Positions 4,823 to 43,700 of a stretch of DNA of 64,000 nt are shown piece by piece. The notes beneath the pieces were generated by a model. That model searched no databases, was not told where the DNA came from, and worked only from the letters and a program-made list of their open reading frames with translations. A program made the position numbers and the translations under genes. The DNA is from Prosthecobacter sp. (lineage in GTDB: Bacteria > Verrucomicrobiota > Verrucomicrobiia > Verrucomicrobiales > Verrucomicrobiaceae): contig NZ_JACSRD010000284.1 of the NCBI RefSeq assembly GCF_014879935.1, positions 1 to 64,000 of the forward strand, written 5' to 3'. The stretch's first letter is position 1. Each line of letters begins with the position of its first letter.

Positions 4823-6715
<1,893 letters not shown>

Positions 6716-6823
6716 GGCGGGCCGTTAGAATGCCAAACCCGGCCAGATTGGCAATCAAAGCCCGCTTTTTCGGCATGATTCACCCTCATGCCCGAAATCG
6801 GACACGCGGAGTGGAACCGAAGG

Positions 6824-8512: not shown

Positions 8513-8540
8513 GATGGTGTGGGTTGAAAGAAAGGCTCCG

Positions 8541-10145: not shown

Positions 10146-10235
10146 GGGGCGATTTAAGAGCGCCCAGCTGTGATTGGCAAGCAACCTCGGGCCTCAGGCG
10201 CAAAAAAACCTCTACAACAGCCTCTGAAAGAGCAA

Positions 10236-11414
10236 CTACGGTGCCTCCGCAGCCTGATAAGCGGCGATCAACTGAGCGACACTGCGCTCCCAGTTCAGTT
10301 CCCGCGTCAATCGTTCGTGACCTGCGCGTCCCAGCTTTTCAAGACGGGCTTCGTCATCCAGGAGGCCGAGAATTGCATCCCCGAGCTTCGCCGGACTGTT
10401 CTCCATGACGTAAACCGCTCCCTCGCCAGCGGAGAACCGACCTTCCACCGTGCCGAACATGACGATCGGCCGCGCAAAGGCCATGTACTCCAGCACCTTG
10501 TTCATGGTGCAGTGATCGTTGTAGGCGTTGATGGGATCGCAGGCGACGCCGAGGTCGATGCTGCGCAGAGCGCGGCACAAAAACTCGTCGCTGACACGTC
10601 CGGGCATGCTGATGTGATCTTGAAGGCCGAGTTCATCCCGCAGCGCAAGCAACTCCGCATGCTCCGGGCCGGAGCCCATGAGCAGGAACTGCACGTCGTC
10701 GCGCTTTCGTGTTTTGACGATGTGATCGGCGGCGCGAACGAGGTAATCGACGCCGTCGGCATTTCCCATGACGCCGATGTAGCCGACGAGATGCCCTCTG
10801 CCGCGGCGGAGTGGTTCATCGGGCTCCACAGCGGTGTTCATGCGGCTGGGGGCGGTGCGCACCACGAACGCGCGGTCGTCCCGCAGCTTTCCGCGCTCCT
10901 TCACCGCGCGCAGCACGCTTTGATTGGTGGCGATGACCACATCCGCCAAAGCGAGCGTGCAGCGCTCGGCAAGGCGCACGGCCCAATACATGAGGCCGCG
11001 TTTGCCAAATTTCGCCTCGAACATCTCCGGCCAGAGGTCATGCACGTCGAAGATGACCTTCACGCCCGCAAAGAGCTTGAAGGGCAGCGCGACGAGAAAG
11101 AGCAGGTCCGGCGGGTTGCACAGATGAATCACGTCGAAGCCGCCACGCTTCCAGGCTTTGACCGCACACCAGAACTCGCCCCACAACGCGGACGCATACT
11201 CGGCCAGGAAGCCGAAGACGGACTTGGCCTCGCTGCTGATCCAGTGGCGGTAAATCTGAATGCCTTCGAGGACTTCCTCCGCCTGGGTGTAGCCGCGCAT
11301 CTGTGGGCAGATGACCGTCACGTCATGCCCCGCATCACGCAAGGCGCAGGCTTCCTGCCAGACGCGTCTGTCGAAGGGAACGGGAAGATTCTCGACGAGG
11401 ATGAGGACGCGCAT
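10236..11414 (-). CDS. GT4 family glycosyltransferase
   Basis: A 392-residue GT-B enzyme. It starts MRVLILVENLPVPFDRRVWQ, the usual opening of WcaI/WbuB-like and Fuc/GlcNAc transferases. It has DVIHLCNPPDLLF and VKVIFDVHDLWPEMF in the acceptor half, and YIGVMGNADGVDYLV and MNKVLEYMAFARPIV in the donor half. It probably builds exopolysaccharide or O-antigen-type glycans in the cytoplasm. It starts 12 bp after the rseP stop, so the two are probably co-transcribed. Confidence 0.93.
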   Translation of the reverse strand: MRVLILVENLPVPFDRRVWQEACALRDAGHDVTVICPQMRGYTQAEEVLEGIQIYRHWISSEAKSVFGFLAEYASALWGEFWCAVKAWKRGGFDVIHLCNPPDLLFLVALPFKLFAGVKVIFDVHDLWPEMFEAKFGKRGLMYWAVRLAERCTLALADVVIATNQSVLRAVKERGKLRDDRAFVVRTAPSRMNTAVEPDEPLRRGRGHLVGYIGVMGNADGVDYLVRAADHIVKTRKRDDVQFLLMGSGPEHAELLALRDELGLQDHISMPGRVSDEFLCRALRSIDLGVACDPINAYNDHCTMNKVLEYMAFARPIVMFGTVEGRFSAGEGAVYVMENSPAKLGDAILGLLDDEARLEKLGRAGHERLTRELNWERSVAQLIAAYQAAEAP

Positions 11415-11426
11415 GACGGATGAAGA

Positions 11427-12950
11427 TCACGCGCCGGGAGCCGCCTTGGCTGCCCGTTGATCTTTGGGAAGCCACTTGATGTTCAGGCTCTTGCCGTCCT
11501 TCGCCGGAGCGCCGAAAAAGTCGCCTGTGTCCTTGAGCGTGACGAAAATGAGAAAGCCGAACAACGCGAGCGCACAAGCGGTCTGCACGTATTCGAGCAG
11601 GCGGCCTTGCGGCGGCTTGCGACGGATCGCCTCCGCGATGGCCATCGTGATGTGGCCGCCATCGAGCACCGGGAACGGCATCATGTTGAGGATGGCTAGG
11701 TTGATGTTGAAGACGACGCTGAACCACAGCACGAGACGCCAGCCGTCCGGATGCTGGAACAGCTTGTAGTAAAGGCGGCCCACACCGACGGGGCCGCTCA
11801 TGTGCGCGGGACTGAGGTCGGACTTCGGGGACAGCAGCTTTGAAACGAGGTTCCCCATGTGGCGCACCGCGTCGCTGATCTGCTCCCAGGGTGTGACGAC
11901 AATCGGTGTGCGCTTGCCTTCCACATCCCAGGCGATGCCGACCATGGGATACGCCTTTTTGTCTTCCGTGAATTCAGCCAGGTTGTTCTCGTCAGGAACT
12001 CGCGGTGTGACGGACAACTGGATCATTTTGCCTCCGCGCTCCACATCCAGCATGATCGCTTTGCCAAGGCTGGCCCTCACGTAGTCACCCAGGTCGCCTG
12101 TGCTGCGGAGCAGCTTGCCATCGGCGCGGATGATGAGGTCATTCGGCTTGATCCCGGCATCGTCAGCGGGGCTGTTTTTGTGCACCTCACCCACCATCGG
12201 CGTCATCTGGCCTTGCAGGCCGACATCGCGAAGCTCGGGGCGCTTGAAGATCGACTGCCACCAGGAGGCCTCCACCGGCTTGTCATCGGATTTGGGCCAG
12301 GCTTTCGGATCGACGTCGAATTTGAGGGTGCCCTGGCCAGGCCGCTCCACTTCAAAAGGGATGGTGTCACCTTCACTGGCCACCATGTTCCAGCGCACGC
12401 TGTCCACGAGGCCCTCGAAACGCTTCACAGGGTGCCCGTCCACGGCTTTCACGATGTCCCCTGGCTGGATGCCGGCCTTCGCCGCAGGACTGTCCTCCGC
12501 GACATAACCGACCGTGGTGGTCGTGTGCGCCTCGCTCTGCGGCTTCCCGACCTGCCAGACAGCCACGGCAAACACACACGCGAGCAGAAAGCTGAACAAC
12601 GGCCCGGCGAAGGCGACGATGGCTTTGTCCAAGGGTGTGATCGGCGGCAGGGGCTCCTGATTCGTCTCGCCTTCCAGGCCGCCCATCGGTGCCATCTGCG
12701 GAAGGGCCACGAAACCGCCCGCCGGAATGCTGCCGAGGCCGTATTCCACGCCGTTGATGGTCTTTTTCCAGAGGGGCTTCCCGAACCAGATGTAGAACTT
12801 GTCGATCTTCAGCCCGCGCCAGCGTGCGGCGAGGAAATGGCCCCACTCATGGACGACAATCATGAGGTTGAACACGAGGATCACCTCCAGAATGAGGATG
12901 ATGAAACGGAGCGCCTCACCAAAGGCGCCGAGAGATGAAAGCCATGCCAT
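11427..12950 (-). CDS. rseP: RIP zinc metalloprotease (site-2 protease)
   Basis: An intramembrane protease that cuts anti-sigma factors or leftover signal peptides. It is 507 residues, slightly longer than E. coli RseP. The zinc motif HEWGH is at 34-38 in the first helix and the second metal motif (NMMPFPVLDG) at about 422-431. Two PDZ domains lie at roughly 146-203 (GYVAEDSPAAKAGIQPGD) and 250-310 (GEVHKNSPADDAGIKPND). In many bacteria rseP follows dxr and is close to other isoprenoid genes; here ispG is four genes downstream. A start at MAWLSSLGAF is the only good choice. Confidence 0.95.
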   Translation of the reverse strand: MAWLSSLGAFGEALRFIILILEVILVFNLMIVVHEWGHFLAARWRGLKIDKFYIWFGKPLWKKTINGVEYGLGSIPAGGFVALPQMAPMGGLEGETNQEPLPPITPLDKAIVAFAGPLFSFLLACVFAVAVWQVGKPQSEAHTTTTVGYVAEDSPAAKAGIQPGDIVKAVDGHPVKRFEGLVDSVRWNMVASEGDTIPFEVERPGQGTLKFDVDPKAWPKSDDKPVEASWWQSIFKRPELRDVGLQGQMTPMVGEVHKNSPADDAGIKPNDLIIRADGKLLRSTGDLGDYVRASLGKAIMLDVERGGKMIQLSVTPRVPDENNLAEFTEDKKAYPMVGIAWDVEGKRTPIVVTPWEQISDAVRHMGNLVSKLLSPKSDLSPAHMSGPVGVGRLYYKLFQHPDGWRLVLWFSVVFNINLAILNMMPFPVLDGGHITMAIAEAIRRKPPQGRLLEYVQTACALALFGFLIFVTLKDTGDFFGAPAKDGKSLNIKWLPKDQRAAKAAPGA

Positions 12951-31918: not shown

Positions 31919-33217
31919 TCACTTCCCGATCTTGTACAGCGCCTTGTCCGTGCGGATGAACAGGGCGCTGCCGTCGGCGATGGGGCTGGCCATGATCGGG
32001 CCGTCGAGGGTGTTCTGGGCGAGGATTTTGAATTCTTTCGCGGCAGGAACGATCGTCACCACGCCTTCACGGCTGCAGAAGTAAAGTTTGCCATCTGCCA
32101 GGATCGGTGAGGCGCTGAATTTGCCGCCCAGTCGTTCGCGGTAGAGCGCCTCGCCCGTTTTCGTGTCCACGCAGCTCACGATGCCGCCGTCATCAATGTA
32201 GAACAGCAGGCCGTCGTGCAGCACGGGCGAGCACATCTTCGGGGCGTTCTTGTTGTTTCTCCACGTGACCTCAGGCGTCTTCACACCGGCATGTTTGAGT
32301 GCGATGACGGCTGATTTGCCGAAAGCGGTGCTGAAATAGATCTGTTGGTCGTCGGCGACGGGTACGGTGGACATGGAGAAGCCGAGCTCGCCATAATGGA
32401 TCTTCCACAGCTCCTGGCCGGTCTGCGGATGGTAGCCGTAGATGTTGTTGGCGGCGGAGCTGACGACCTGTGGCTGGCCGTTGATGGTGACGATGAGCGG
32501 CGTGCCATACGCCTTCCTTTGCTGTGGACGCGGGTCCATTTCGCCGCTGCGTGGTGTTTTCCACGCGAGCTTGCCGGTGTTCTTGTCGAAGGCGGCGATG
32601 AATTGCTGATCGCTGCCGTCGAAGTGGGCGATCAAACGGTCGCCGGACAGCACGGCGGTGGAACCAGGGCCGTTTTCGTGCATGACTTGCAGTTCCGCGT
32701 TCTTCCAGAGCAGCTTCAGCGTCTTGGTGTCGAGCGCCACGGTGCCAAACGAGCCGAAATGGGCATAGAGACGGCCTTCCTCGATCAGGGGCGTCGGGGA
32801 GGCATAGCTGTTGAGCTGGTGCGCCCACTGCGGGTCTTTGACGTTCAGCATTTCGATGTCGTGCAGCAGCTTCCCACTGTTTCCATCCACACAGAGAGCA
32901 TGCAGGCTCACCGAGGAGAGAACGACGAGCGGCTGGTCGCCAGTGTTCGATTCAAGGCGGCGCTGGGTCTCCTCCGGTGTCGCCGCCTTTTCGATGGCCG
33001 TGGTCATCCAGATCTGGCCGCCCCACATCACCGGTGTGGAGTGGCCGCGGCCGGGGAGCGGCGTCTTCCACGCCACATTGCTCGTCTCGCTCCACGTGTC
33101 CGGCAGTCCGGAAGCGCTCGCATGGCCTTGCGCCGATGGCCCGCGCCATTCGGGCCAGTTGGCAGCACAGCAGATGGAGACGGAAAACAGCAGCGGGAGG
33201 GCGGAACGATGGATCAT
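31919..33217 (-). CDS. PQQ-like beta-propeller secreted protein
   Basis: A 432-residue protein. Starting at MIHRSALPLLFSVSICCA gives a signal peptide; the longer frame upstream overlaps the divergent gene. It opens with WPEWRGPSAQGHA, the usual start of verrucomicrobial outer-membrane 'PQQ-binding-like' propellers, and has blade repeats such as AFDKNTGKLAWKT, YHPQTGQELWKIHYG and CVDTKTGEALYRERLGG. The eight-blade propeller probably acts as a binding platform rather than an enzyme; PQQ binding itself is not shown. Confidence 0.9.
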   Translation of the reverse strand: MIHRSALPLLFSVSICCAANWPEWRGPSAQGHASASGLPDTWSETSNVAWKTPLPGRGHSTPVMWGGQIWMTTAIEKAATPEETQRRLESNTGDQPLVVLSSVSLHALCVDGNSGKLLHDIEMLNVKDPQWAHQLNSYASPTPLIEEGRLYAHFGSFGTVALDTKTLKLLWKNAELQVMHENGPGSTAVLSGDRLIAHFDGSDQQFIAAFDKNTGKLAWKTPRSGEMDPRPQQRKAYGTPLIVTINGQPQVVSSAANNIYGYHPQTGQELWKIHYGELGFSMSTVPVADDQQIYFSTAFGKSAVIALKHAGVKTPEVTWRNNKNAPKMCSPVLHDGLLFYIDDGGIVSCVDTKTGEALYRERLGGKFSASPILADGKLYFCSREGVVTIVPAAKEFKILAQNTLDGPIMASPIADGSALFIRTDKALYKIGK

Positions 33218-33272
33218 GGGCGGGAAAAAAACGTGGCAGGGCGTCCCGAACTCTCTTTCACTTGCCGCCGCC

Positions 33273-34139
33273 ATGCGCATTCCGTTTTTCCTGCTTCTTC
33301 TCACCACGGCGCTTGTCGCACAGACACCGGCTCGGGAGGAATTCATCGAGGTGCGTCCCGGCACGCTGCCCGTCATCCTCACCGTCCCGCATGGCGGCAT
33401 GCTGAAGCCTGACAACGTGCTGGCCCGGCGTTACGGCGTCACCGGCATGGACGCCAACACGATTCCGCTCTCTGAAATGATCATGGAGGAGATGGAGGCC
33501 CGCTTCGGCGGCAGACCTCACGCCATCATCTCCCGGCTGCATCGGACGAAGCTGGACCCCAACCGCGAGATCAAGGAGGCGGCCCAGGGCGATCCCACGG
33601 CGGAGGCGGCGTGGCACCGGTTTCATGACGGCGCACGAAAAGCCTGCGAAGCCGTGATGAAAAGGCACGGCATGGGCCTGCTCCTCGACATTCACGGCCA
33701 TCGCCACATCGATCAGCGCGTGGAGCTGGGCTATCTTGTCAAAGCCGAGCAATTGAAGGCCAGCGACGCCGAATTGAACGCCGACGCGGCGCTGATCGCC
33801 TCCACCAGCATCCGCGATCTGGACAAACGTTCGCCGCAAACCTTCGCCCAATTGCTGCGGGGGCCACAGAGCCTGGGCGGGCTGCTGGAGCGTCACGGCG
33901 CCCGCTGCCTGCCGAGTCCGTCCAAGGCTTATCCTGGCCTCATGGCCGGCTACTTCAGCGGCGTCTATGATGTGGCCGCGCACGGCTCGCGCAACGGCGG
34001 CACGGTGAGCGCGATCCAGATCGAATGCCCCTGGAACAACGTGCGTGACCGCCCGGACAACCAGCGTCTCTTCGCCAGGGCGCTGGTGGAATCACTCGGT
34101 GTTTACTTCGAGGTCCACTTCGGCAAACGACTCCGCTGA
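33273..34139 (+). CDS. secreted N-formylglutamate amidohydrolase-like protein
   Basis: A 288-residue protein starting MRIPFFLLLLTTALVAQT (signal peptide). The metallo-amidohydrolase motifs are VPHGG (metal/active site near residue 40) and LLLDIHGHRHIDQRVELGY with the metal histidine. RLHRTKLDPNREIKEAA also fits the N-formylglutamate amidohydrolase/PGA-hydrolase fold. Because it is exported, the substrate is probably an extracellular amide rather than the cytosolic histidine-pathway intermediate. It points toward the amide-related cluster on the other strand but is convergent with it. Confidence 0.8.
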   Translation: MRIPFFLLLLTTALVAQTPAREEFIEVRPGTLPVILTVPHGGMLKPDNVLARRYGVTGMDANTIPLSEMIMEEMEARFGGRPHAIISRLHRTKLDPNREIKEAAQGDPTAEAAWHRFHDGARKACEAVMKRHGMGLLLDIHGHRHIDQRVELGYLVKAEQLKASDAELNADAALIASTSIRDLDKRSPQTFAQLLRGPQSLGGLLERHGARCLPSPSKAYPGLMAGYFSGVYDVAAHGSRNGGTVSAIQIECPWNNVRDRPDNQRLFARALVESLGVYFEVHFGKRLR

Positions 34140-34163
34140 TGACGGCCCCGCCGCCGCTGCGTC

Positions 34164-35633
34164 TCAGACCCGCCCGAGGGCCTCGCGAACTTGTGCCGGG
34201 GTGGTGACGGCCAGTCCGGTTGGGACGCGTTCATCCCGCGTTCCACGGCGATGCAGCCAGCCGAAGAATGCGGTGCTGCCCAGCAGCCCGGCATTGAAAG
34301 GCAGGCTGAGCGGCAGCAGGCCCACGCGCAGCAGCGCCTCCGTCAAAGGCGTGTGCAGCGCCGCCAGCACAAAGGTGACCAGCACGGTCCAGGCGAGCGT
34401 TCTCATGTTCAGCCGCAGATAGTGACCACCGAGCGCCAGGAACAGCACGATCACGTTCATGGAAAACGCCGGATCGCCAAACACCGGGAGCCAGGATGAT
34501 CCGGCCATGCACATCCCGACGGCCGCCAGGGCGATCAAGGCGCTCGTCCGCGAATGCCAGAGCACGCCGATGAAGAACCACAGCCAGCACAGCAACATGC
34601 GCGATGAGGTGAACTGCGCCGCCTGGCTCAGATGCTCATTCAGAAAGCCGCTCCAGGCCGTGGCCACCCGCTTCGCCTGCCCTTCCGGCAGAGTTCCAGC
34701 CAGGCCGGTGAAGGCGTCGGAAAAAAACGGGGCGCACAGCACCGCGGCGGTGAAGTGCCGCCGGGCTTCCCCAGGCTTGTTCTCGTTCATCGCACACCAG
34801 CCGAGGCCGTCCCACGAGTCGGCAAAGAAGGAGTCCAGTCCGACCGCCCGCTGAAAAGCGAGTCGCGCGTCTTCATAGCGTCCCTGGCGGAAGCGGCTCC
34901 AGCCCAGGCCGTCATAGGCGTCCGCCACGCCCCGCTTGAGGGAGAGAACTCGCGAAAAAGCCGTCTGCGCGCCCATTTGATCCCCCCGGCGGTACAAACT
35001 CCAGCCCAGGCCGGCGCAGCGATACGCCTCCGCCATGTCGGTGCTCAGTTCGGTGTTGAGGAAGTGCTTCTCCGCCTTTTCGAAGCGGTTCGTCACCAGC
35101 GCACGCCAGCCGCGTGTCAGCTCCGCGTCATGCACGCCGAAAAAGATCAATGCGAGCAACGCGGCCCACGTGGCGGCGATGTAGGGCAGGCTGAACAGCA
35201 CATACGGCGATCTCTTCTCATGCATGCGCTCCACCACCGGCACGAAGAAGAACGCCATCGCCAGACAGCCGAGCGCCGTGGCGGCCACCTGCGCCCAGAA
35301 CGGCACCTGCGGGAAAAAATGCCACAGTCCGCCGAGCAGCACTCCATTCACACTCACCAGGCCGCTTTTCAGCACGGTTTCGTCCCGTGCACGCCAGCGG
35401 GCAGCGGCCGACATCAGCAACGCCCCGCCCAGGCTCATCAGCGCCGACTCGACCGACAGGCAGAACAGTCCGATCAGCACGCACACACCCGTCACGCGGC
35501 TGCTGGCCGCCACGATCTGGCCGAAGCCACGCAGAGACTGGTCAAACACCGCCGCTGCCGCATGACGAATCACGAACGACAGGCCGCGGCCTTCATCATT
35601 CGTCGTGCTGCTTTCGTCGGGGTTCGCCATCAT
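34164..35633 (-). CDS. urea-transporter-fold protein with TPR domain between its two halves
   Basis: A 489-residue membrane protein. Residues 30-167 match the first half of the urea-transporter (UT) fold: RGFGQIVAASSRVTGVCVLI, then LKSGLVSVNGVLLG and a final helix PYIAATWAALLALIF. Residues 326-462 match the second half (LWFFIGVLWHSRTSALIAL, then FSMNVIVLFLALGG, and LPLSLPFNAG). Between them, 170-320 is a soluble TPR-like region (AEAYRCAGLGWSLYRRGD, ADAYDGLGWSRFRQGRYEDA, ADSWDGLGWCAMNENKPG). The usual UT link is short, so this insertion is unusual. Residues 8-26 look repeat-derived (TTNDE ... SFVIRH). It is the last gene of the PqqD/ATP-grasp cluster. Confidence 0.75.
   Translation of the reverse strand: MMANPDESSTTNDEGRGLSFVIRHAAAAVFDQSLRGFGQIVAASSRVTGVCVLIGLFCLSVESALMSLGGALLMSAAARWRARDETVLKSGLVSVNGVLLGGLWHFFPQVPFWAQVAATALGCLAMAFFFVPVVERMHEKRSPYVLFSLPYIAATWAALLALIFFGVHDAELTRGWRALVTNRFEKAEKHFLNTELSTDMAEAYRCAGLGWSLYRRGDQMGAQTAFSRVLSLKRGVADAYDGLGWSRFRQGRYEDARLAFQRAVGLDSFFADSWDGLGWCAMNENKPGEARRHFTAAVLCAPFFSDAFTGLAGTLPEGQAKRVATAWSGFLNEHLSQAAQFTSSRMLLCWLWFFIGVLWHSRTSALIALAAVGMCMAGSSWLPVFGDPAFSMNVIVLFLALGGHYLRLNMRTLAWTVLVTFVLAALHTPLTEALLRVGLLPLSLPFNAGLLGSTAFFGWLHRRGTRDERVPTGLAVTTPAQVREALGRV
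35561..35620. repeat. short repeat of the MTNDE/SFVIRH family at a gene start
   Basis: catgacgaatcacgaa and ttcatcattcgtcgtg are inverted partners around 35561-35604, similar to the hairpin inside ispG. They encode the first residues of the UT-TPR protein. Confidence 0.55.
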
Positions 35634-35715
35634 GGTGCCGGAGGAGTTTACGGCCCCGCCTGTGGCACTCTATGACGGGCGATGCCGCGCGGCAATGGCA
35701 GGAACACGGCATCGG

Positions 35716-36342
35716 TCACCGTGGCGGCGGACCGTGCGAGATGGCAAAGCCGTCTCTCACCAGATAGCCGTCCGGATTGATCTGCATCAGCCTTTCAAAC
35801 AGCGGCGCGGCCAGCCTCACCTGCCCCTGGGCGATGCGTGCCCAGCCCAGCCAGCTCATGGCGGTGGGGTCTTCCGGGTGCAGATGATGCGCACGGTCGA
35901 AGTAAGTCTCGGCTTTGCGGTGGTCGCCCTGATTGAAAAGCAGCTCCCCGGCGATCATCAGCAGTTTGAAATGGTATTGGTCGATGTTCAGGCCGTTGCG
36001 TGCCGCCGCCAGCGCCTCCTTCGGCTTTTGCATCTCGAGGGCGGTGTAAACGAGGCCGAGATGCGGCGTGACAGCACGCGGCTCCTGTTTCGCGGCGGTG
36101 ACGTAGAACTGCACGGCCTTCTCGAAATCCTTCGCCAGGTAGGACAGCCATCCGCCGCGGACCGCCGCCAGATAGGTCTCTCCTCCCGCGCTTTTGAATT
36201 CGAGCGTCTTCTTCAAAGCGGCGGCATAGTCCTGGTTTGACTCGTCAGCGAGCGACTGCTGCCAGAGCTCGGCGGCTTTTTGTGGATCGGCGCCACGGAC
36301 AAAGGCCGCGGCGAACAAGAGGAGGGCAATGGTCGTTTTCAT
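35716..36342 (-). CDS. secreted TPR protein
   Basis: A 208-residue protein starting MKTTIALLLFAAAFVRGA (signal peptide). About four TPR units follow: DYAAALKKTLEFKSAGGETY, DFEKAVQFYVTAAKQEPRAV, KPKEALAAARNGLNIDQYHF and DHRKAETYFDRAHHLHPEDP. It lies between two urea-transporter-fold genes in the same direction. It may be a periplasmic scaffold for the complex (inference). Confidence 0.85.
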   Translation of the reverse strand: MKTTIALLLFAAAFVRGADPQKAAELWQQSLADESNQDYAAALKKTLEFKSAGGETYLAAVRGGWLSYLAKDFEKAVQFYVTAAKQEPRAVTPHLGLVYTALEMQKPKEALAAARNGLNIDQYHFKLLMIAGELLFNQGDHRKAETYFDRAHHLHPEDPTAMSWLGWARIAQGQVRLAAPLFERLMQINPDGYLVRDGFAISHGPPPR

Positions 36343-36371
36343 GGAGGGCGAGAGGTGAAAAGGGAAGACGT

Positions 36372-38660
36372 TCAGGCTCGTTCGCCGCCGGGCAGCGTGG
36401 CCTCGAATTCCGTCTGGGTGAAGGTGAGCGTGCGGGTTTCGAAGCGCGCGACGAGGTGGGTGAGGCCGCGAATCGGCTCCAGCGTCAGTTCGATCTCACG
36501 GGGGAGATGCGCGGGCGCTCCTGGCAGCGAAGCCGTCAGTTGCAGGCGGTGATGCGTCGGATGCAGCGCATGACGCACGACGACCCGCTGCATCTTGTGC
36601 CCCAGATAGGGTCGCAGGGCGTCCGCCCATGCCCGGCCGTGCTGCTTTGCGGGCAAAGCGACACAATCCTCCCAAATCATGCCGCTTTGATAAGCGAAGG
36701 GCACGGTGGGCATGGCGAACGAAAGGAGCCGCAGCAGCTCGGAAGCGCCTTCAAGGCGGCTTTCAGTGATCTGCAAGGCGTGGAGGCCGAGAACGCCGGT
36801 GAACCGGCCTCCGCCTGAGGACCACAGGTATTGACCGGTCTCGCTCAACCTCGTGGTCAGGCGTTCCTGCGTTGTCTGACCTTCGGAACAGCTCACCCGG
36901 AAACTCGCGATCCCCGGCGCAAAATGAGCCAGCGTGCCCAGCACGGTGGTGGAGATCGTCGCCGAGGCGATGCGGGCTCCAACTTTGGGCACGCTGGCAA
37001 AGTGCCAGCGCAGTGTGTCGTCGTTGCGGCTGAAGATGTTCGTGAGGCAGAAGGGCGTCGTCGGAGCGCCGGTGTCGGTGGTGGTCTGCGTGTGCAGGTG
37101 GATGTGCGGCACAGGCGAGCGCCCGGTGTTGCCGCAGTAACCGAGGAGATCGCTGGCGATGACGTGCTGGCCGGGTTTCACATGGATGCCGTTCTTGGTG
37201 AAGTGCGCGAGCTTCACGATGCCGCCGTGATCGAGGCGGAGGATGAGGTGGTTGCCCCAGTTCTGCGCGAAGTTGCAGCCGCCGGGCGCGTTGTCGGGCA
37301 CGTTGTCGATGACGCGGAGGACTTCGCCGCTGCCAGGAGCGCGCACTTCGAGACCTTGCGTGTAGTAGCGGCTCAAATCGTCGTCGCAGCCGGGCGGGCA
37401 GGCGTTTCCAGCGGCGTCGAGCACTTCAAAGTCGAGCGCGTGTTTCCAATCGCCGCGATGCGAGAGCTTGTCGTCGAAGCCTTGCGTGACGGTGACCTCG
37501 CGCGAGGTGGGCAGCAGCACATGCGTGTCGTGGCGATGCGGGAAGCGGGCATTCGCGAGCGCGATGCTGGCCGCGGCGGCCTCGGGGTTTTCAAAAGTGC
37601 CGACGGTGGGCAGCAGCGAGCCCGATTTCTCGCGCAGGCGCATGGCGCAGAGGAAACTCCAGATCGTGAGCAGATACGGCAGCGGCAGGTATTCCCAGCC
37701 GGAGCCACGCAGGAAGTGCTGCACCGCGGCGACGTTCAACGCGGCCACCGCACCGCCACCGAAGGCCAGCGCGAGGCTGCTCCATGATGGCACGAAGTAA
37801 ACAGCCCCGAGCGCCATGCCGGCGAGCAGGTAGTTGTGACCCGCGAACCAGCCGAACCACTGCAAGCCACAGGCTTCGAGCATTTTCACGACAAGAATGC
37901 CACCCGCGTAACCCGCGATGGCATTGACGATGGCCACGCGTGACCACACGAGCAATGCGACGAGCACCGCGACACCGGCCCAGACATTCGGCATGAACAA
38001 AATGGTGCCAAGGCTGCGCAGGAAGGCATTCACGACGAAAGGCAGCGCGGGATCGGCCGGCAGCGCATACGGCAGCGCGGCGGAAGCGGCTGCGGCGAGC
38101 GGGAAGAAGGTCAGCAACGTGCCGAACACGACGACGAAGGCGACGCTGAGCGGCGGCAGGCCTGCTTTGAGCGGAAACCAGTGCCACAACGCGGCGGAGA
38201 GCAGCAGCGAATACACCGTGGCGATGCCGAGCATGCCGTAGATGGCCGCAGGCGGCAGCGTGGTGTTCCGCGTGATCCACGCGACGGCGAGAGCGCTGAG
38301 GAGCACATTGTAGAGCAGCGTGCCGTCTTTGCGCATCGCGGTGGGTAGATGCATGATTTTCGCGAGGAAACCGCCGAGCAGCGTGGCGGACATCGCGAAG
38401 AGAAAGTAGCGCGGCACGAGCAGCAGTGAGGCACAGAGCAGTGCGCCGGTTTTCCAGCTTCCGCAGAGGAAGATGGAACTGGCGGCGCGTGAGGTGTCGA
38501 GCAGCGGTGAGAGAAAGTGGGACAGGTTTTTAACCTGTCTTTTCACGAACGTCGTGAAGGCTTCGAAGGCGCTGGGACGCACAGGTTGGAAACCTGTGCC
38601 ACTTTCTGGCGTGGCTTCGAGAAGGTCCATCATGGGGAGGGAGGATGATGGTGGGTTCAT
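36372..38660 (-). CDS. urea-transporter-fold protein fused to an M23-type peptidase
   Basis: A 762-residue protein. Residues 45-345 form a UT-fold membrane domain in two halves: RKDGTLLYNVLLSALAVAWI in the first, and RSLGTILFMPNVWAGVAVLV with AGHNYLLAGMALGAVYF in the second. Residues 385-535 are an M23 peptidase-like domain: WKHALDFE (HxxD variant), GNHLILRLDHGGIVKLAHF, VKPGQHVIASDLLGYCGNTG and PHIHLH with the metal HxH. The remaining 220 residues are beta-rich and unassigned. In known UTs both termini are cytoplasmic, so the peptidase might face the cytoplasm. Residues 18-50 are encoded by a palindromic repeat (TGFQPV ... VKNLSHF). Confidence 0.8.
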   Translation of the reverse strand: MNPPSSSLPMMDLLEATPESGTGFQPVRPSAFEAFTTFVKRQVKNLSHFLSPLLDTSRAASSIFLCGSWKTGALLCASLLLVPRYFLFAMSATLLGGFLAKIMHLPTAMRKDGTLLYNVLLSALAVAWITRNTTLPPAAIYGMLGIATVYSLLLSAALWHWFPLKAGLPPLSVAFVVVFGTLLTFFPLAAAASAALPYALPADPALPFVVNAFLRSLGTILFMPNVWAGVAVLVALLVWSRVAIVNAIAGYAGGILVVKMLEACGLQWFGWFAGHNYLLAGMALGAVYFVPSWSSLALAFGGGAVAALNVAAVQHFLRGSGWEYLPLPYLLTIWSFLCAMRLREKSGSLLPTVGTFENPEAAAASIALANARFPHRHDTHVLLPTSREVTVTQGFDDKLSHRGDWKHALDFEVLDAAGNACPPGCDDDLSRYYTQGLEVRAPGSGEVLRVIDNVPDNAPGGCNFAQNWGNHLILRLDHGGIVKLAHFTKNGIHVKPGQHVIASDLLGYCGNTGRSPVPHIHLHTQTTTDTGAPTTPFCLTNIFSRNDDTLRWHFASVPKVGARIASATISTTVLGTLAHFAPGIASFRVSCSEGQTTQERLTTRLSETGQYLWSSGGGRFTGVLGLHALQITESRLEGASELLRLLSFAMPTVPFAYQSGMIWEDCVALPAKQHGRAWADALRPYLGHKMQRVVVRHALHPTHHRLQLTASLPGAPAHLPREIELTLEPIRGLTHLVARFETRTLTFTQTEFEATLPGGERA
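38512..38607. repeat. large inverted repeat (GTGFQPV/VKNLSHF type) in the UT-M23 gene
   Basis: Outer arms agaaagtgg-gacaggttt (38512-38529) and aaacctgtg-ccactttct (38590-38607) match with one mismatch. Each arm also holds its own small perfect hairpin: gacaggtt-ttt-aacctgtc (38521-38539) and cacaggtt-gga-aacctgtg (38580-38598). The element sits inside the coding frame near the start of the protein. Confidence 0.85.
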
Positions 38661-38711
38661 GGTGGTGTTTTAGAGGTTCACTTGGGTCGCTTCGGTCCTT
38701 TTTGTCTCTTG

Positions 38712-38762
38712 GAATGGCGCGGAAGGATCGAGGACGAGTTCGAGTAGGAGGACGAGGACGAT
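38712..38762. repeat. purine-rich degenerate repeat before the UT-M23 gene
   Basis: Repeated gagga / gaggacgag units fill much of the gap between the decarboxylase stop and the UT-M23 start. It resembles other dispersed spacer repeats of this genome type. Whether it affects transcription is unknown. Confidence 0.4.
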
Positions 38763-40202
38763 TCAATTCCGCGGCGAAGCCAGCAGATGATCCGGAATGC
38801 GTTCCAGCCGCTGCACGTAATCGAGGTCCTCGCGTTCGCGGATGACATCGACACGGCCGTCGAGGCCGATCATGACCACAGCGGGACGGTAGGTGATGAA
38901 CTGCATGCTCTGCGTGATGTTGTAGGCACCGACGGGATGCATGACGAGATGATCGCCAGTGGTCATGGCGGGCAGGGAGACTTGCTCGCGGATGACGTCG
39001 ATGTTCATGCAGAGGCAGCCGTAGAGCTTCACGGGTTGCGCGGCGGCCTCGCGGAGGGCTTTGGCGGGCTTCACGTTGAAGCGATACCAGTTGCCGCTGT
39101 AGAGCAGGTTGATGCCGGCATCGACGACATACGCGGTGCCAGGTGTTTCGTGGACGTAGGCGGGGCCTTTGTTGGCTTTGCCCGCGAGCGTGATAGGGCC
39201 GCTGGCGGAGGTTTGCTTCACGGCGACGACGCTGGTGATGAGATAACCGGCTTCATCGACAAGAGCGCGACCGCTTTCGAGGTAGAGACGCGGACGGCGG
39301 TCGCGCGGGAGCGAGTTCAGCACGCCGGTGATGGCCTCGGCATACCTCTCGATGGGCTGCACGAACTGCTCGGCGCTTTGATACGAGTAATGCAGCGTGC
39401 TGAGCGAGGGGAAGCCGCCGCCGAGGTTCAGGTAGCGCAACTGCCAGCCATACGTCTCGCGGCAGCGCTCCATGAGCGTGACGAGTTTTTCAGCGGCGAC
39501 CTTGTAGGCGTTCGGTTCGAGAATGTAGGTGCCGATGTGCGTGTGCAGGCCTTGCAGGCGGAGGCGGCCCTTGCTTTCGGCGATGCGGCGGATGACCCGC
39601 CAGGCCTCGCCGTTTTCGACGCCGAAGCCGAACTTGCTCCACACGGGCTGGATGCCGGCATCGAGCCAGCAACGGATGGCGAGGTCGATGCTGCGATTCT
39701 GCTCTTTCGCGATGCTGTCGAGCAGCAGCAACTCGTCCCAGTTATCGACTTGGATCATCGCGCCTTCAGCGACGGCGAGTTCGAGGCCTTCGCGGCTTTT
39801 GTGCGGTCCGTTGAAGATGATGTCGCGTCCGGCGATGCCGTTGCGGCGTGCCTTTTCATACTCGAACTCGCTCACGACCTCCGCGATGCTGCCCTCGCTG
39901 TGAAACACACGGCAGATGGCGTTGAGGTAGTTCGTTTTGTAGCTCCACGCGAAGCGCGTGTTCGGATACCGGCTCTCGAAGGCCTCGCGAGCACGGCGGA
40001 TTTTCTCCCGCAGCGTGCGTTCGGAGAAAACAAACAGCGGCGAGCCAAAACGAGCCGCGAGATCTGCGACGGCGACGCCATCAATGCGCTCGCAGACGTT
40101 GTGATTGAGGCCGTGCGCGTTGCGATTGCGATTCACCGCGCTGTTCGCGCCGTGGAGGTGGCGGGTGATTGTTGGCGGAGTGTATGGGAGGAGAGCGTTC
40201 AT
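38763..40202 (-). CDS. fold-type III PLP-dependent decarboxylase (LysA/DapDC-like)
   Basis: A 479-residue enzyme of the diaminopimelate/ornithine decarboxylase superfamily. PLP lysine K89 lies in AWSYKTNYLNAI. The histidine ring-stacking motif is LHTHIGTYI, the phosphate-binding glycines are NLGGGFPS, ESGRALVDEAG follows, and YGCLCMNIDVI with GAYNITQSMQF gives the C-terminal substrate-binding cysteine and tyrosine of the active-site dimer. Normal LysA is about 420 residues and has GPxC; here the C motif is altered, so the substrate may not be DAP. It sits between an ATP-grasp and a UT-M23 gene, so it may decarboxylate an amino acid or peptide made by the cluster. Confidence 0.9.
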   Translation of the reverse strand: MNALLPYTPPTITRHLHGANSAVNRNRNAHGLNHNVCERIDGVAVADLAARFGSPLFVFSERTLREKIRRAREAFESRYPNTRFAWSYKTNYLNAICRVFHSEGSIAEVVSEFEYEKARRNGIAGRDIIFNGPHKSREGLELAVAEGAMIQVDNWDELLLLDSIAKEQNRSIDLAIRCWLDAGIQPVWSKFGFGVENGEAWRVIRRIAESKGRLRLQGLHTHIGTYILEPNAYKVAAEKLVTLMERCRETYGWQLRYLNLGGGFPSLSTLHYSYQSAEQFVQPIERYAEAITGVLNSLPRDRRPRLYLESGRALVDEAGYLITSVVAVKQTSASGPITLAGKANKGPAYVHETPGTAYVVDAGINLLYSGNWYRFNVKPAKALREAAAQPVKLYGCLCMNIDVIREQVSLPAMTTGDHLVMHPVGAYNITQSMQFITYRPAVVMIGLDGRVDVIREREDLDYVQRLERIPDHLLASPRN

Positions 40203-40205
40203 GGG

Positions 40206-40311
40206 AAGCGAAGGGCTAAGGGCGTAGAGCGAAGAGTCAGAAATCAGGCGACGTGCGAAGCGGAAGAGCGGGTTTGGGGCTCTCTGCCCTTCGCTCTTGG
40301 CTCTTCGCTTT
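40206..40311. repeat. imperfect inverted repeat between decarboxylase and ATP-grasp genes
   Basis: aagcgaagggctaagggcg ... agcgaagag (40206-40235) pairs imperfectly with gctctctgcccttcgctctt ... cttcgctt (40279-40311). The right part lies inside the C-terminal codons of the ATP-grasp gene and gives the tail QSEEPRAKGREPQTRSSASH. Confidence 0.6.
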
Positions 40312-41368
40312 GTCGGATGAGCTGCCCGGTGGTGGTCAAAGCCGCCAAGTCTCGGATATCACCCGTCATGTCGATGGCGTGGCGGATGAAGAACTTGCCG
40401 GGCGTGGCGTGGCGCAGCGGTTCGCGGGGTTGCCAGCCAAGGGCGAGCTCGACGGCGGCGGCGGGGAGATTGCAATTCAGCGTCGAGGGGAAGTCGCACC
40501 AGGCGGGGAAGCGTGGATTGATCTCGATGAGGCAGTATTCGGCCTTCGGGCCGTCGGGTTTGACGAATTCGAGTTCAAACGGGCCGTTCCAGCGCAGCTC
40601 GGCGATGAGCGATTGCGCGACGGCGTCGAGCTGCGGATCACGCACGACCATGCCGCCGAAGCCTTTGCCATTTGAGGTGCGCAGCATCTTGCGGATGGCG
40701 CAGGAGCCGAGGATGTGCCCGCGGCCGTCACCGATGCCGATGACGTTGTATTCCTCGCCCTCGATGCGCTCTTGAACGAGCACCGGAGCGCCCCAGGTCT
40801 CCAGCATGTGCCAGTAGGCCGATTCACGCGCTGCCGGCGTGCTGGTGAGCTGCGCCTCGTAGTAGCGGCCTTTGACGAACACACTGCCGCCAAAGCCCGC
40901 CGCAGCCTGATGCAGGCTGCTCACATCATTCACCGCGACGGTTTGCGGCGTGCGGCAATGCGTGCGCTCGCAGAGGTCCGGCAGCTTCGATTTGTCGCGA
41001 GCTTCAAAAGCCTTCCACGACGGCAAACAGGCCGAAATCCCACGCTCGCGCAGTTTTTCGGGCGATTCGACCAGCGGGGCCATTTCGGCGTCGAGGCAAG
41101 GAATGAGCACATCGAAGCGCTCAACCTCGCGAATGGCATCGAGGCGATCCCAGAAGGCTTCGAGGCCCGCCGAAGGATACGGCAGCGTGAACGCGGCATC
41201 CGGCGCGTCTTCCTCGCTGTAGAGCCCGCTTTCCAGGGTGTCGTAGCAAAGGCCGATGATGCGCAGCTCGGGATACACGCGGCGCAGGCTGCGGATGACC
41301 GCGGAACCGGGCTGGGGATTTTCACCGCGATGAAGACCGGTGACGGCGATGGTGGGGGAGGAGTTCAT
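40244..41368 (-). CDS. ATP-grasp domain ligase
   Basis: A 374-residue enzyme from MNSSPTIAVTGLHRGE. The layout is that of carbamoyl-phosphate-synthase-like/PylC-like ATP-grasp ligases: an N-terminal Rossmann part (RRVYPELRIIGLCYDT, DVLIPCLDAEMAPLVESP), then GGSVFVKGRYYEAQL, VLVQERIEGEEYNVIGIGD and ELEFVKPDG ... YCLIEINPRFPAW, which holds the Mg ligands E and N. It should join a carboxylate to an amine or thiol using ATP. The partner is unknown. The last 23 residues come from a repeat element and may be dispensable. Confidence 0.9.
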   Translation of the reverse strand: MNSSPTIAVTGLHRGENPQPGSAVIRSLRRVYPELRIIGLCYDTLESGLYSEEDAPDAAFTLPYPSAGLEAFWDRLDAIREVERFDVLIPCLDAEMAPLVESPEKLRERGISACLPSWKAFEARDKSKLPDLCERTHCRTPQTVAVNDVSSLHQAAAGFGGSVFVKGRYYEAQLTSTPAARESAYWHMLETWGAPVLVQERIEGEEYNVIGIGDGRGHILGSCAIRKMLRTSNGKGFGGMVVRDPQLDAVAQSLIAELRWNGPFELEFVKPDGPKAEYCLIEINPRFPAWCDFPSTLNCNLPAAAVELALGWQPREPLRHATPGKFFIRHAIDMTGDIRDLAALTTTGQLIRQSEEPRAKGREPQTRSSASHVA

Positions 41369-41393
41369 GTTCCAAGTTTCAGGTTTCAAGTTC
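41369..41393. repeat. tandem-like ttcaagt/tttcag motif between pqqD-like and ATP-grasp genes
   Basis: The 25-bp gap between the two genes reads as short repeats (gttccaagtttcag gtttcaagtt). Similar 'FQVSGFKF'-type repeats are known as spacer elements in related genomes. Coverage is too short to be sure. Confidence 0.3.
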
Positions 41394-41714
41394 TCAGTCT
41401 TGGAGGCCGAGGGTGGTGAGTTCGGCGAGGAAGGACTCCAGATCGCGCTCGGCGGTGCGGCGTGGCACGTCGAAAGTGCTCGTGAGGCGGTCGAGGATCT
41501 GCACGGTGCTCATTTTGGCCGCGAGGCATTGCATCACGACGAGAGCTGTCGGGCTGGCGGTGAAGAACTCGCCGCTGGTGGCATCGAAGCCGAAGCCGTC
41601 CGCCTGCCAGGTCGTGGTGCGGAATGAAAAAGAAGTGTCTTCGGCAGAAACGGCAGCGCTTTGGGGCTGACCGCTTTGCTGGCGTTGCAGGATGGGTGGA
41701 GAGGCGAGGTTCAT
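41394..41714 (-). CDS. PqqD-like RRE protein
   Basis: A 106-residue protein from MNLASPPIL; ATG at 41735 is the alternative. The C-terminal 70 residues match PqqD: GFGFDATSGEFFTASPTALV, then LAAKMSTVQILDRLTSTFDV, then ERDLESFLAELTTLGLQD. PqqD-type RREs (RiPP recognition elements) bind a peptide leader and deliver it to modifying enzymes. No radical SAM enzyme or short precursor gene is visible nearby. It is the first gene of the minus-strand cluster and starts 229 bp after the stop of the small secreted protein at 41944. Confidence 0.8.
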   Translation of the reverse strand: MNLASPPILQRQQSGQPQSAAVSAEDTSFSFRTTTWQADGFGFDATSGEFFTASPTALVVMQCLAAKMSTVQILDRLTSTFDVPRRTAERDLESFLAELTTLGLQD

Positions 41715-41885
41715 GGCGGTGGTTGATTGGATCACACCGACATAGAAGCCCGGCCGGTTAACAGCACCGTGGGGGCGAGGATGAATTCCCGTTTATTTTC
41801 ACCGGTTCACCTTCCTGCGACGCAGAGTGCCTCCCGCGGTGCAGATCACAACGGGGAACGGCAGGATGTCGCCCATGCACGCTTG

Positions 41886-41911
41886 CATCTCCGCCATCGC
41901 GGGCGGAGATG
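41886..41911. other. strong hairpin before the PqqD cluster
   Basis: A perfect 10-bp stem (catctccgcc / ggcggagatg) with a 6-base loop lies in the 229-bp gap upstream of the pqqD-like gene. No T-run follows on either strand. It may mark the transcript end of the small gene at 41944 or a leader structure of the cluster. Confidence 0.35.
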
Positions 41912-41943
41912 CTCAAACCGCTTCTTCCTGCGCACGGAACGTC

Positions 41944-42276
41944 CTACTTTTTCAATGGCGGAAGGTCGTGGCGGATCAGCAGCTCGCTGGCGCGTTGCCG
42001 TTGCTCATGCCAGACGTTGCTGGGATCGGCGGGATTCTTCCACGGGTCCGGCAGTGGTGCCGGTTCCCGGAGGAACTCGATGGAGGCTGCGGCGGGATTG
42101 AAGCGCCTGGAGGGAGGCACCGGTTGCGCGGGTTCGGAGTTCGATTCCGCAACGGGCTTGTCAGGGATCTTCTGGCCGGTCTGTGTCCGCTGACCGACCC
42201 TCCACGCCTGGGAAAGTGCCAGCAGGATGGCCGCGATCACCACCCCCCTGGTCAAGTGTGAGGATGTCGTTTTCAT
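41944..42276 (-). CDS. small secreted or anchored protein, unknown function
   Basis: A 110-residue protein starting MKTTSSHLTRGVVIAAILLA, a membrane anchor or signal peptide. The rest is Pro-rich and charged (SRRFNPAAASIEFLREPAPL, WKNPADPSNVWHEQRQRAS) and ends in DLPPLKK. It has no cysteine and no obvious domain. It is the nearest gene upstream of the PqqD-like gene on the same strand, so a link to the cluster, even as substrate, is possible but unsupported. Confidence 0.6.
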   Translation of the reverse strand: MKTTSSHLTRGVVIAAILLALSQAWRVGQRTQTGQKIPDKPVAESNSEPAQPVPPSRRFNPAAASIEFLREPAPLPDPWKNPADPSNVWHEQRQRASELLIRHDLPPLKK

Positions 42277-42386
42277 GCAGGAAGTGAATTCCTATTTCTG
42301 GCAGCCGCAAGCACCTCTTTTCGGCCTGCGACGGCGGAGGAAGGCAGAGTTGACGTGCCGACTCCCCCCGCTTAGCCATCGCGCCC

Positions 42387-43700
42387 ATGAGCACCGAAGC
42401 GAAGCACGGGATTTCATTGGTGACCGCCACGGCGGTCGTGGTGGCCAACATGATCGGCACGGGTGTCTTCACCTCGCTGGGCTTTCAGGTGGGAGATCTG
42501 CCCTCGGGCTTCACCATTTTGATGCTCTGGCTCGTGGGCGGTGTGTGCGCCTTCTGTGGCGCGATGTGTTATGGCGAACTGGCGGCCGCGTTGCCCCGCT
42601 CGGGCGGCGAGTATCACTTTCTCTCGAAGATTTTTCATCCGGCGCTCGGCTTTCTCTCCGGCTGGCTCTCAGTGACGGTCGGCTTCGCCGCGCCCATCGC
42701 GCTCGCGGCCATGGCCTTCGGCAAATACTTCTCCACGATCTTTCCGCATGCTCCGGCGACGACGTGGTCGCTGGTGATGGTGTGGATCATCACGCTGGTG
42801 CATGTCGGAGGGGTGAAGACAGCCGCCCGGTTCCAAAACCTGGCCACCTGGCTGAAGGTCACGCTCATCTGCGTGTTCATCGGCTCCGCATGGATCATGG
42901 CGCAGGGTGTGCCGGTGCGTTTCACTCCGGATGCGACGGACTTCGGCTTGATCACGAGCAAACCCTTCGCCGTGAGTCTGGTCTATGTGATGTACTCGTA
43001 TGCCGGCTGGAATGCGGCGGCCTACATCGTCGGCGACATCCGCGAGCCGCAGAAGAATGTGCCGAAGGCCATCGCCATGGGCACAGTGCTCGTCACGGGC
43101 CTTTACCTGGCGCTTAACGCCTCCTTCCTGCATGCGGCACCGGCTGACGCTCTGGCGGGAAAGCTGGATGTGGGCCACGTGGCGGCGGAGCACATCTTCG
43201 GTGTCACAGGAGGAAAGATCATGTCCGGCCTGATCTGCCTGGGCCTCGCCTCGAGCATCAGCGCGATGACATGGCTGGGGCCGCGCGTGCTGCACACGAT
43301 GGGCGAGGACATGCGCATCCTGAAGCCGCTCTCCGCCTGCGATGAGCATGGCGTGCCCGTGACCGGGCTGTTCGTGCAGCTTTCCATCGTGATCACGCTG
43401 CTGCTCACGGCCAGCTTCAACACGGTGCTCACGGCCGTGCAGTTCAGCATCCAGCTGGCCTCGTTTGCCACGGTGGTGGGTCTGATCGTGCTGCGCCGGA
43501 AGCAACCGGAGCTGCCCCGGCCCTACCGCTGCTGGGGTTATCCGGTCACACCGCTGTTGTTCCTGGCCATCAGCCTGTGGATGATGGTGTTTCTCATGCT
43601 CGACCCCGTTTCGCGAGAAGCGTCTCTCTACGGCCTCGGCCTGATCGCCCTGGGTTTGATCGTGTTCTTCATTTCACCGCGTACAGATCGCACCGCATGA
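42387..43700 (+). CDS. APC family amino-acid permease
   Basis: A 437-residue inner-membrane protein with about 12 helices. The start of helix 1 has the unwound Na/substrate-site motif ANMIGTGVFTSLGFQ. Further signs are YGELAAALPRSGGEYHFLSK and MYSYAGWNAAAYIVGDIREP. The family imports amino acids or polyamines. Its stop overlaps the start of the next gene (ATGA), so the two are translationally coupled. Confidence 0.92.
   Translation: MSTEAKHGISLVTATAVVVANMIGTGVFTSLGFQVGDLPSGFTILMLWLVGGVCAFCGAMCYGELAAALPRSGGEYHFLSKIFHPALGFLSGWLSVTVGFAAPIALAAMAFGKYFSTIFPHAPATTWSLVMVWIITLVHVGGVKTAARFQNLATWLKVTLICVFIGSAWIMAQGVPVRFTPDATDFGLITSKPFAVSLVYVMYSYAGWNAAAYIVGDIREPQKNVPKAIAMGTVLVTGLYLALNASFLHAAPADALAGKLDVGHVAAEHIFGVTGGKIMSGLICLGLASSISAMTWLGPRVLHTMGEDMRILKPLSACDEHGVPVTGLFVQLSIVITLLLTASFNTVLTAVQFSIQLASFATVVGLIVLRRKQPELPRPYRCWGYPVTPLLFLAISLWMMVFLMLDPVSREASLYGLGLIALGLIVFFISPRTDRTA

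Follow-up and report, generated by a model that had tools for sequence, protein, structure and literature searches.

A window of 64,000 nucleotides from Prosthecobacter sp. (contig NZ_JACSRD010000284.1; "the window" denotes this whole stretch) was found to carry, within a minus-strand gene set at 34164-41714, a cassette that is kept together in distant members of the Verrucomicrobiota. The core operon encodes a PqqD-like protein, an ATP-grasp ligase, a pyridoxal 5'-phosphate (PLP) decarboxylase and a membrane protein in which a urea transporter (UT) domain is joined to M23 and LolA-like domains. We interpret these four genes and the gene for a secreted tetratricopeptide repeat (TPR) protein as a single biosynthesis-and-envelope system organized by a RiPP recognition element (RRE; RiPP, ribosomally synthesized and post-translationally modified peptide), with a probability of about 0.45. 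The pathway is probably one for a small amide or amine. Sequence analysis supports this interpretation through the gene set kept together, the RRE-type protein, a decarboxylase with an N-terminal tail, the partnership of ligase and decarboxylase, an active-site pocket unlike that of LysA, and the UT-M23-LolA-like protein; from these features we infer the product, the order of the reactions and the side of the membrane on which the M23 domain lies. Domains were assigned by Pfam and NCBIfam family scans of open reading frames (ORFs).

Conservation was analyzed in the Verrucomicrobiota by use of a 388-genome sample, a scan of species genomes and further searches. The species-genome scan yielded five close metagenome-assembled genomes (MAGs) and nothing but close relatives, and all five were found to encode PqqD, ATP-grasp, decarboxylase, UT-M23, TPR and UT/TPR proteins in the order of the window. 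The UT-M23 fusion was detected in 7 of the 388 sampled genomes, the window's own included. By profile search, the ATP-grasp family was recovered at E < 1e-140 in the same seven genomes and in none of the others, with the next-best match (3.5e-65) in genome G207. Identical seven-genome sets have a chance probability of 4e-15 if genomes are assumed to be independent, which they are not. Three carriers (G392, G396 and G475) were added by the further searches. In nine of nine distant genomes the PqqD, ATP-grasp, decarboxylase and UT-M23 genes are adjacent and in the same order, encoding proteins ~20-50% identical to those of the window, and all cassettes found have the PqqD gene upstream of that for ATP-grasp. 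Trees of three cassette genes recovered the same main clades. The distribution is patchy, with same-genus genomes in the sample lacking the cassette, and one carrier (G187) is a single 4.4-Mb contig. Taken together, four to five genes travel with one another across distant Verrucomicrobiota, and the cassette is established; its conservation holds within this one phylum. A preliminary description of the window had proposed a six-gene unit, to be regarded as a chance neighbourhood if the families did not co-occur in other genomes. Chance neighbourhood was rejected because of the conserved gene order and co-occurrence, which extend to the four core genes and the secreted TPR gene. Not all six genes are conserved, however, as the UT protein split by TPR repeats is confined to close relatives of the window.

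Several weaker matches were set aside as members. G206, G402 and other M23-only matches represent M23 proteins that lack a UT domain and are unaccompanied by other cassette genes, and the ATP-grasp match in G156 (1e-21) is in an unrelated setting. One of the close loci (L006) is on a contig titled Akkermansia muciniphila; its cassette proteins share ~60-93% identity with their counterparts in the window's Verrucomicrobiaceae-type clade, and the contig is probably a mislabelled MAG.

Two single-chain proteins of ~757 amino acids, in which an ATP-grasp domain is fused to an ornithine/diaminopimelate (Orn/DAP)-type decarboxylase, were retrieved with the ATP-grasp query. One is encoded on a plasmid of Streptomyces zaomyceticus (L050:5998-8274), where it is annotated as hypothetical, and the other by genome G499 (L080:7180-9450). 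In the plasmid collection no record covers 80% of UT-M23, and only separate UT, M23, ATP-grasp and decarboxylase hits were obtained, with the exception of this Streptomyces fusion. The proposal that ligase and decarboxylase act together is strengthened by the fusions, by the co-occurrence and by the decarboxylase active site.

The nearest solved structure to the decarboxylase was found to be the N-citrylornithine decarboxylase FigC/FslC (1.7e-87), followed by DAP decarboxylase (7e-63), D-ornithine/lysine decarboxylase and BtrK. FigC acts on amide-linked ornithine and has Met instead of an acidic residue after the catalytic Cys (PMC7857480). The window family has in common with FigC the motifs C-M-x-x-D and GAYN, and presents S/T...W-Y at positions aligned with FigC; its Cys loop reads C-M-N-I-D, where the LysA of this genome reads C-E-S-G-D. 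Judged by alignment, the pocket no longer contains the acidic residue to which a free side-chain amine would bind. Because of this Met and because Ile and Gln stand in place of the citrate contacts, the pocket looks built for an amino acid with its side-chain amine blocked or absent, and not for citryl-ornithine. The family scores place the protein outside both named groups, at 224 bits for lysA (NCBIfam cut-off 297.9) and 196 bits for FslC/FigC (cut-off 500). Housekeeping lysine synthesis was rejected, as a separate true LysA is encoded on contig C51 and the cassette decarboxylase is below the lysA cut-off.

The pocket supports, with no proof, ligation before decarboxylation. In the reverse order, a free amine would be produced from a free amino acid and then coupled to a carboxylate by the ATP-grasp enzyme. 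MfnA and MfnD of methanofuran synthesis decarboxylate and then ligate, the G207 cluster includes an ATP-grasp protein with a weak match to MfnD, and neither fusion nor co-occurrence gives the order of steps. By contrast, the acidic residue that binds the side chain of a free diamino acid is Met, as in FigC, and the specificity helix has neither the Asp of lysine/ornithine decarboxylases (L/ODC) nor the Arg of DAP decarboxylases (DAPDC). We regard the reverse order as unlikely.

A profile of the PqqD family was found to match best, among PDB entries, the RRE of the lasso-peptide protein TfuB1 (1.6e-13), followed by TbiB1, and by this comparison the PqqD protein is RRE-like. RREs bind leader peptides, and many RRE groups, lasso and PqqD included, use a W/Y/LxxP/L/I recognition sequence, as outlined in a 2025 survey (PMC12710340). 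The decarboxylase was found to have an N-terminal tail of ~35 residues with the motif [YFL]-E/T/S-x-P-x-[I/L]-x-x-L. All 15 decarboxylases aligned show the pattern [YFL]..P.[IL], and P10 and N24 do not vary; N24 lies just past the motif, and the segment that follows (residues 25-39) is poorly conserved. A loose form of the pattern occurs near the start of 6 of ~343 other ORFs, and the genome's own LysA is without such a tail.

A related cluster in G207 (L061, G207:C231:11000-26528; 6456-11582, minus strand) encodes a PqqD protein, an ATP-grasp protein, a 70-residue ORF, a second ATP-grasp protein, a tail-less decarboxylase and a radical SAM protein that is RaSEA-like. The 70-residue ORF contains GYEKPMV. 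This arrangement would fit a single recognition sequence that stands apart in G207 but forms part of the enzyme in the UT-M23 cassettes. The G207 variant has the look of an independent RiPP-type cluster, and a gene for a B12-binding radical SAM protein is nearby on the opposite strand. The remark in the preliminary description that neither a precursor nor a radical SAM gene is present holds for the window, but the related G207 cluster contains a radical SAM gene along with a precursor-like ORF.

We weighed a ribosomal peptide pathway in which the modified substrate is either the tail of the decarboxylase itself, much as borosins combine precursor and enzyme in one chain, or a small ORF that escaped notice. 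The RRE, the YxxP-type tail, the invariant N24 just after the motif, and the separate motif-bearing ORF and radical SAM gene of G207 would fit such a pathway. Opposed to it are the poor conservation of residues 25-39 apart from N24 and the lack of a leader protease besides the M23 domain. In addition, a motif scan of small ORFs revealed no convincing precursor beside any UT-M23 cassette and none upstream of PqqD in the window, the only candidate being that of G207. The UT-M23 cassettes have the RRE domain of a RiPP cluster and no separate precursor-peptide gene, and neither an asparagine-synthetase-like cyclase nor a B2 protease, as expected of lasso clusters, was detected among the six genes and three flanking genes scanned. 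A fused-precursor pathway appears improbable on this evidence.

To characterize the membrane protein, an AlphaFold2 model of UT-M23 was built with 14 homologues (mean predicted local distance difference test score, pLDDT, 77). In this predicted structure, urea transporters are matched by residues 41-371 (Z 33-35) and M23 enzymes by residues 378-556 (Z 14). A separate model of the C-terminal 200 residues (pLDDT 70) is similar to LolA (Foldseek 1.2e-5; VIA Z 9.4), which adds a third domain to the two listed in the preliminary description. A LolA-like fold is also found in VioE and in lipid-transfer proteins, and no function would follow from the modelled resemblance. The M23 region has the fold, the HxH motif and the His/Asp ligands of its family, with H401, D410, H486, H519 and H521 invariant. 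Its His and Asp ligands are spaced otherwise than in the textbook HxxxD motif, and H407 varies among the homologues; we consider the domain a putative M23 peptidase. Across the 14 homologues, Lys plus Arg amount to 16 and 15 per 100 residues in the N- and C-terminal flanks, respectively, with 2.7 in the loop that joins the UT halves. Because of these flank charges and the positive-inside rule, both ends, and hence the M23 domain, would face the cytoplasm, the side to which we lean. Proteins with an M23 domain, no UT domain and the signature CGxSGxSxEPHxH were also observed (L046:8293-9291, L075:6844-7908 and L081:2255-3118), one of them in the archaeon Haloferax larsenii.

These results bear on whether the cassette maintains the envelope or peptidoglycan. 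In that case UT-M23-LolA would act on the wall or on lipoproteins in the periplasm, and a cell-wall amine would be the product of the ligase and decarboxylase. The M23 and LolA-like folds and the secreted TPR protein would be at home in such a role, as would the outer-membrane-barrel-like gene that neighbours the L039 cassette and its possible counterpart in L074. The charge distribution, by contrast, places M23 inside, and an M23 domain of similar sequence is found in a haloarchaeon; haloarchaea are not known to have peptidoglycan. We give this explanation little credence.

In the UT pore, the two Asn positions and the Phe positions are kept and the ladder Thr/Ser are present in most copies. 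The Glu of GEVMFQ and the Gln of GQVMFQ, which we take from the dvUT structure to be urea-binding, were found to be lost in 14 of 14 homologues and kept in 1 of 14, respectively, and the UT equivalog score is 49 bits (cut-off 274.6). The earlier reading of the UT fold as a sign that a small amide is passed is sound as to the fold, which is certain, and weakened by loss of the presumed urea-binding Glu. An operon for uptake of urea or a short amide with accessory enzymes is very improbable: the UT fold (Z ~34) speaks for it, but both residues above are largely gone and urea use was rejected, as the earlier statement that there is no urease was borne out across the whole genome assembly.

In the mechanism that we favor, the RRE would grip the decarboxylase tail, holding decarboxylase, ligase and substrate together. 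The ATP-grasp enzyme would attach an amino acid through an amide (or peptide) bond, and the decarboxylase would then strip the carboxylate from the amide-linked amino acid to leave an amide-linked amine. Trimming or capture of this product would fall to the M23/LolA-like part, and its movement or sensing to the UT pore; in the window's clade, the UT/TPR protein may serve as a second, derived membrane partner. Several points weigh against this RRE-organized system. The 15 tail copies are one homologous segment and not independent. The FigC citrate contacts are replaced (H357 by I401, R387 by Q431), and the substrate is not readable by homology. The cytoplasmic placement from flank charges conflicts with the location of M23 and LolA-like domains, which are usually periplasmic. 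Finally, UT pores pass urea-sized molecules, which limits the product that could be exported. A further step would be that a tailoring enzyme has taken over the RRE-recognition sequence of a precursor peptide, that the RRE assembles the ligase-decarboxylase pair on a free small-molecule substrate, and that the product is processed and exported by a UT-fold channel with its own peptidase and LolA-like domains. This would be a new kind of leader-guided biosynthesis, a tentative proposal about which we are doubtful. The preliminary description as a whole was right in part: its ligase-decarboxylase partnership is supported, its six-gene unit does not, and its small-amide passage survives in part.

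Coordinates of the cassette features in the window (positions count from its first nucleotide).
Feature	Position	Strand	Basis or remark
PqqD-like discrete RRE protein	41394..41714	-	ORF 41394-41735, ATG 41714; Pfam PqqD 4.3e-9
ATP-grasp ligase, carbamoyl-phosphate synthetase (CPSase)-like group	40244..41368	-	ORF 40244-41389; start at ATG 41368, as in relatives
PLP decarboxylase, alanine-racemase fold, FigC/FslC-like active site	38763..40202	-	Orn/DAP decarboxylase 5e-32
RRE-recognition-like decarboxylase tail YTPPTITRHLHG	40149..40184	-	Family consensus [YFL]ExPx[IL]xxLxxG, alignment of 15 homologues
Catalytic Cys loop CMNID (C398-D402) of decarboxylase	38997..39011	-	Met replaces acidic residue of LysA/ODC, as in FigC
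UT-M23-LolA-like membrane protein, 762 amino acids	36372..38660	-	UT 3e-30 and M23 2e-8
UT domain of UT-M23, residues 41-371	37548..38540	-	Structure match to UTs
Putative M23 domain of UT-M23, residues 378-556	36993..37529	-	Invariant H401, D410, H486, H519, H521
LolA-like half-barrel domain of UT-M23, residues ~569-761	36378..36956	-	Folded alone; Foldseek
Secreted TPR protein, Sec-type signal MKTTIALLLFAAAFVRGA	35716..36342	-	TPR 7e-15; homologues in L039, L040, L042, L074, L079
UT/TPR protein, UT domain split by TPR block	34164..35633	-	UT 2e-21
UT/TPR pieces (UT half; TPR; UT half)	35139-35543; ~34674-35084; 34287-34658	-	Pfam UT match in two pieces

The six minus-strand genes are separated by gaps of 25, 41, 102, 29 and 82 bp, in agreement with the range of 25-102 bp reported earlier. 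The ATP-grasp protein scored 1e-15 for the PRK12767 type and 6e-6 for ATPgrasp_Ter, slightly below the family cut-off. The earlier count of two UT-fold proteins was correct, the second being amended to a UT domain with a TPR block between its halves; interruption at the half-half junction is an unusual architecture for a channel fold. No UT family match beyond UT-M23 and UT/TPR was found in the window's genome. Upstream of the operon, a short secreted-looking ORF of 110 amino acids (41944-42276, minus strand) has a 57% homologue at the same place in L006; it was rejected as an extra cassette member, being common only to the window and L006 among the loci scanned. No Rfam match to a cis-regulatory RNA was detected at 33000-43000 and no sigma-70 promoter was found by scanning; terminator-like sites (13 compared to 7.5 in shuffles) are scattered, and this promoter and terminator scan is uninformative.

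Around the core, the position of the secreted TPR gene varies: it precedes PqqD in L039, L040, L042 and L079 and lies downstream in L074 and the window's clade, the only clade in which the UT/TPR gene was found. The barrel-like gene of L039 is weakly matched and downstream of the cassette; at the same position L074 has a similar-sized gene with no family match. A PaaK/LuxE-like adenylating enzyme of ~440 amino acids is encoded between TPR and UT/TPR in four of five close relatives (L004, L005, L007 and L008) and is absent from the window and L006. In G190, G023, G187 and G392 (L041, L043, L044 and L073), a Ser/Thr kinase-like gene with a zinc-ribbon-like N-terminus is just upstream of PqqD, accompanied in most of these loci by FHA-like and sigma-factor-like genes, and phospho-regulation is possible.

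If the RRE-organized system is correct, the role of RREs extends beyond the maturation of peptides to the docking of enzymes that build small molecules, and the UT fold has been recruited to form the membrane component of a biosynthetic system, with peptidase domains built in. A defined four-gene unit is now available, with G187 as a single-contig example genome and the related G207 cluster as an apparent split form. No published description of this gene combination was found in open-licence full texts, an incomplete literature.

Compared to known systems, the cassette shares with the RRE systems of lasso peptides and pyrroloquinoline quinone, PQQ (TfuB1, TbiB1 and PqqD), a discrete PqqD-type RRE and a YxxP-type recognition sequence, but its operon has no lasso cyclase, B2 protease or PqqE, and the sequence is on an enzyme instead of a precursor peptide. 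The FigA/FigC (FslA/FslC) rhizoferrin pathway has a decarboxylase of the same fold with a similar Cys loop, which acts on the amide made by its partner synthetase; the cassette ligase, by contrast, is an ATP-grasp enzyme and not an NRPS-independent siderophore (NIS) synthetase, the citrate-binding residues are replaced, and the cassette includes no siderophore genes. BtrJ and BtrK of butirosin synthesis are an ATP-grasp ligase and a decarboxylase that work on a carrier protein. This is the same family pairing, and BtrK matches the decarboxylase profile at ~152 bits, but an RRE and a membrane protein take the place of an acyl carrier protein gene in the cassette; family scans of the cassette proteins revealed no carrier-protein match, the search not extending to distant or unlinked carriers. 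The complete UT fold, the pore Asn and Phe, and most of the ladder Thr/Ser are as in urea transporters (SLC14/dvUT), whereas in the cassette the UT domain either continues into M23 and LolA-like domains or is interrupted by TPR, and the GEVMFQ Glu is lost. In the 3-thiaglutamate/PEARL pathways (PEARL, peptide aminoacyl-tRNA ligase), a small molecule is built on an RRE-recognized peptide and released by a membrane protease; the idea of an RRE-recognized scaffold with membrane-protease release is shared, but the UT-M23 cassettes have no PEARL or tRNA-dependent ligase and no scaffold peptide gene. By the tests made on sequence, the cassette is outside the lasso, LysA, FslC and urea-transporter families as defined. 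Every one of its domains is known, and the combination appears to be a variant of RRE-dependent biosynthesis, for which a categorically new reading is possible.

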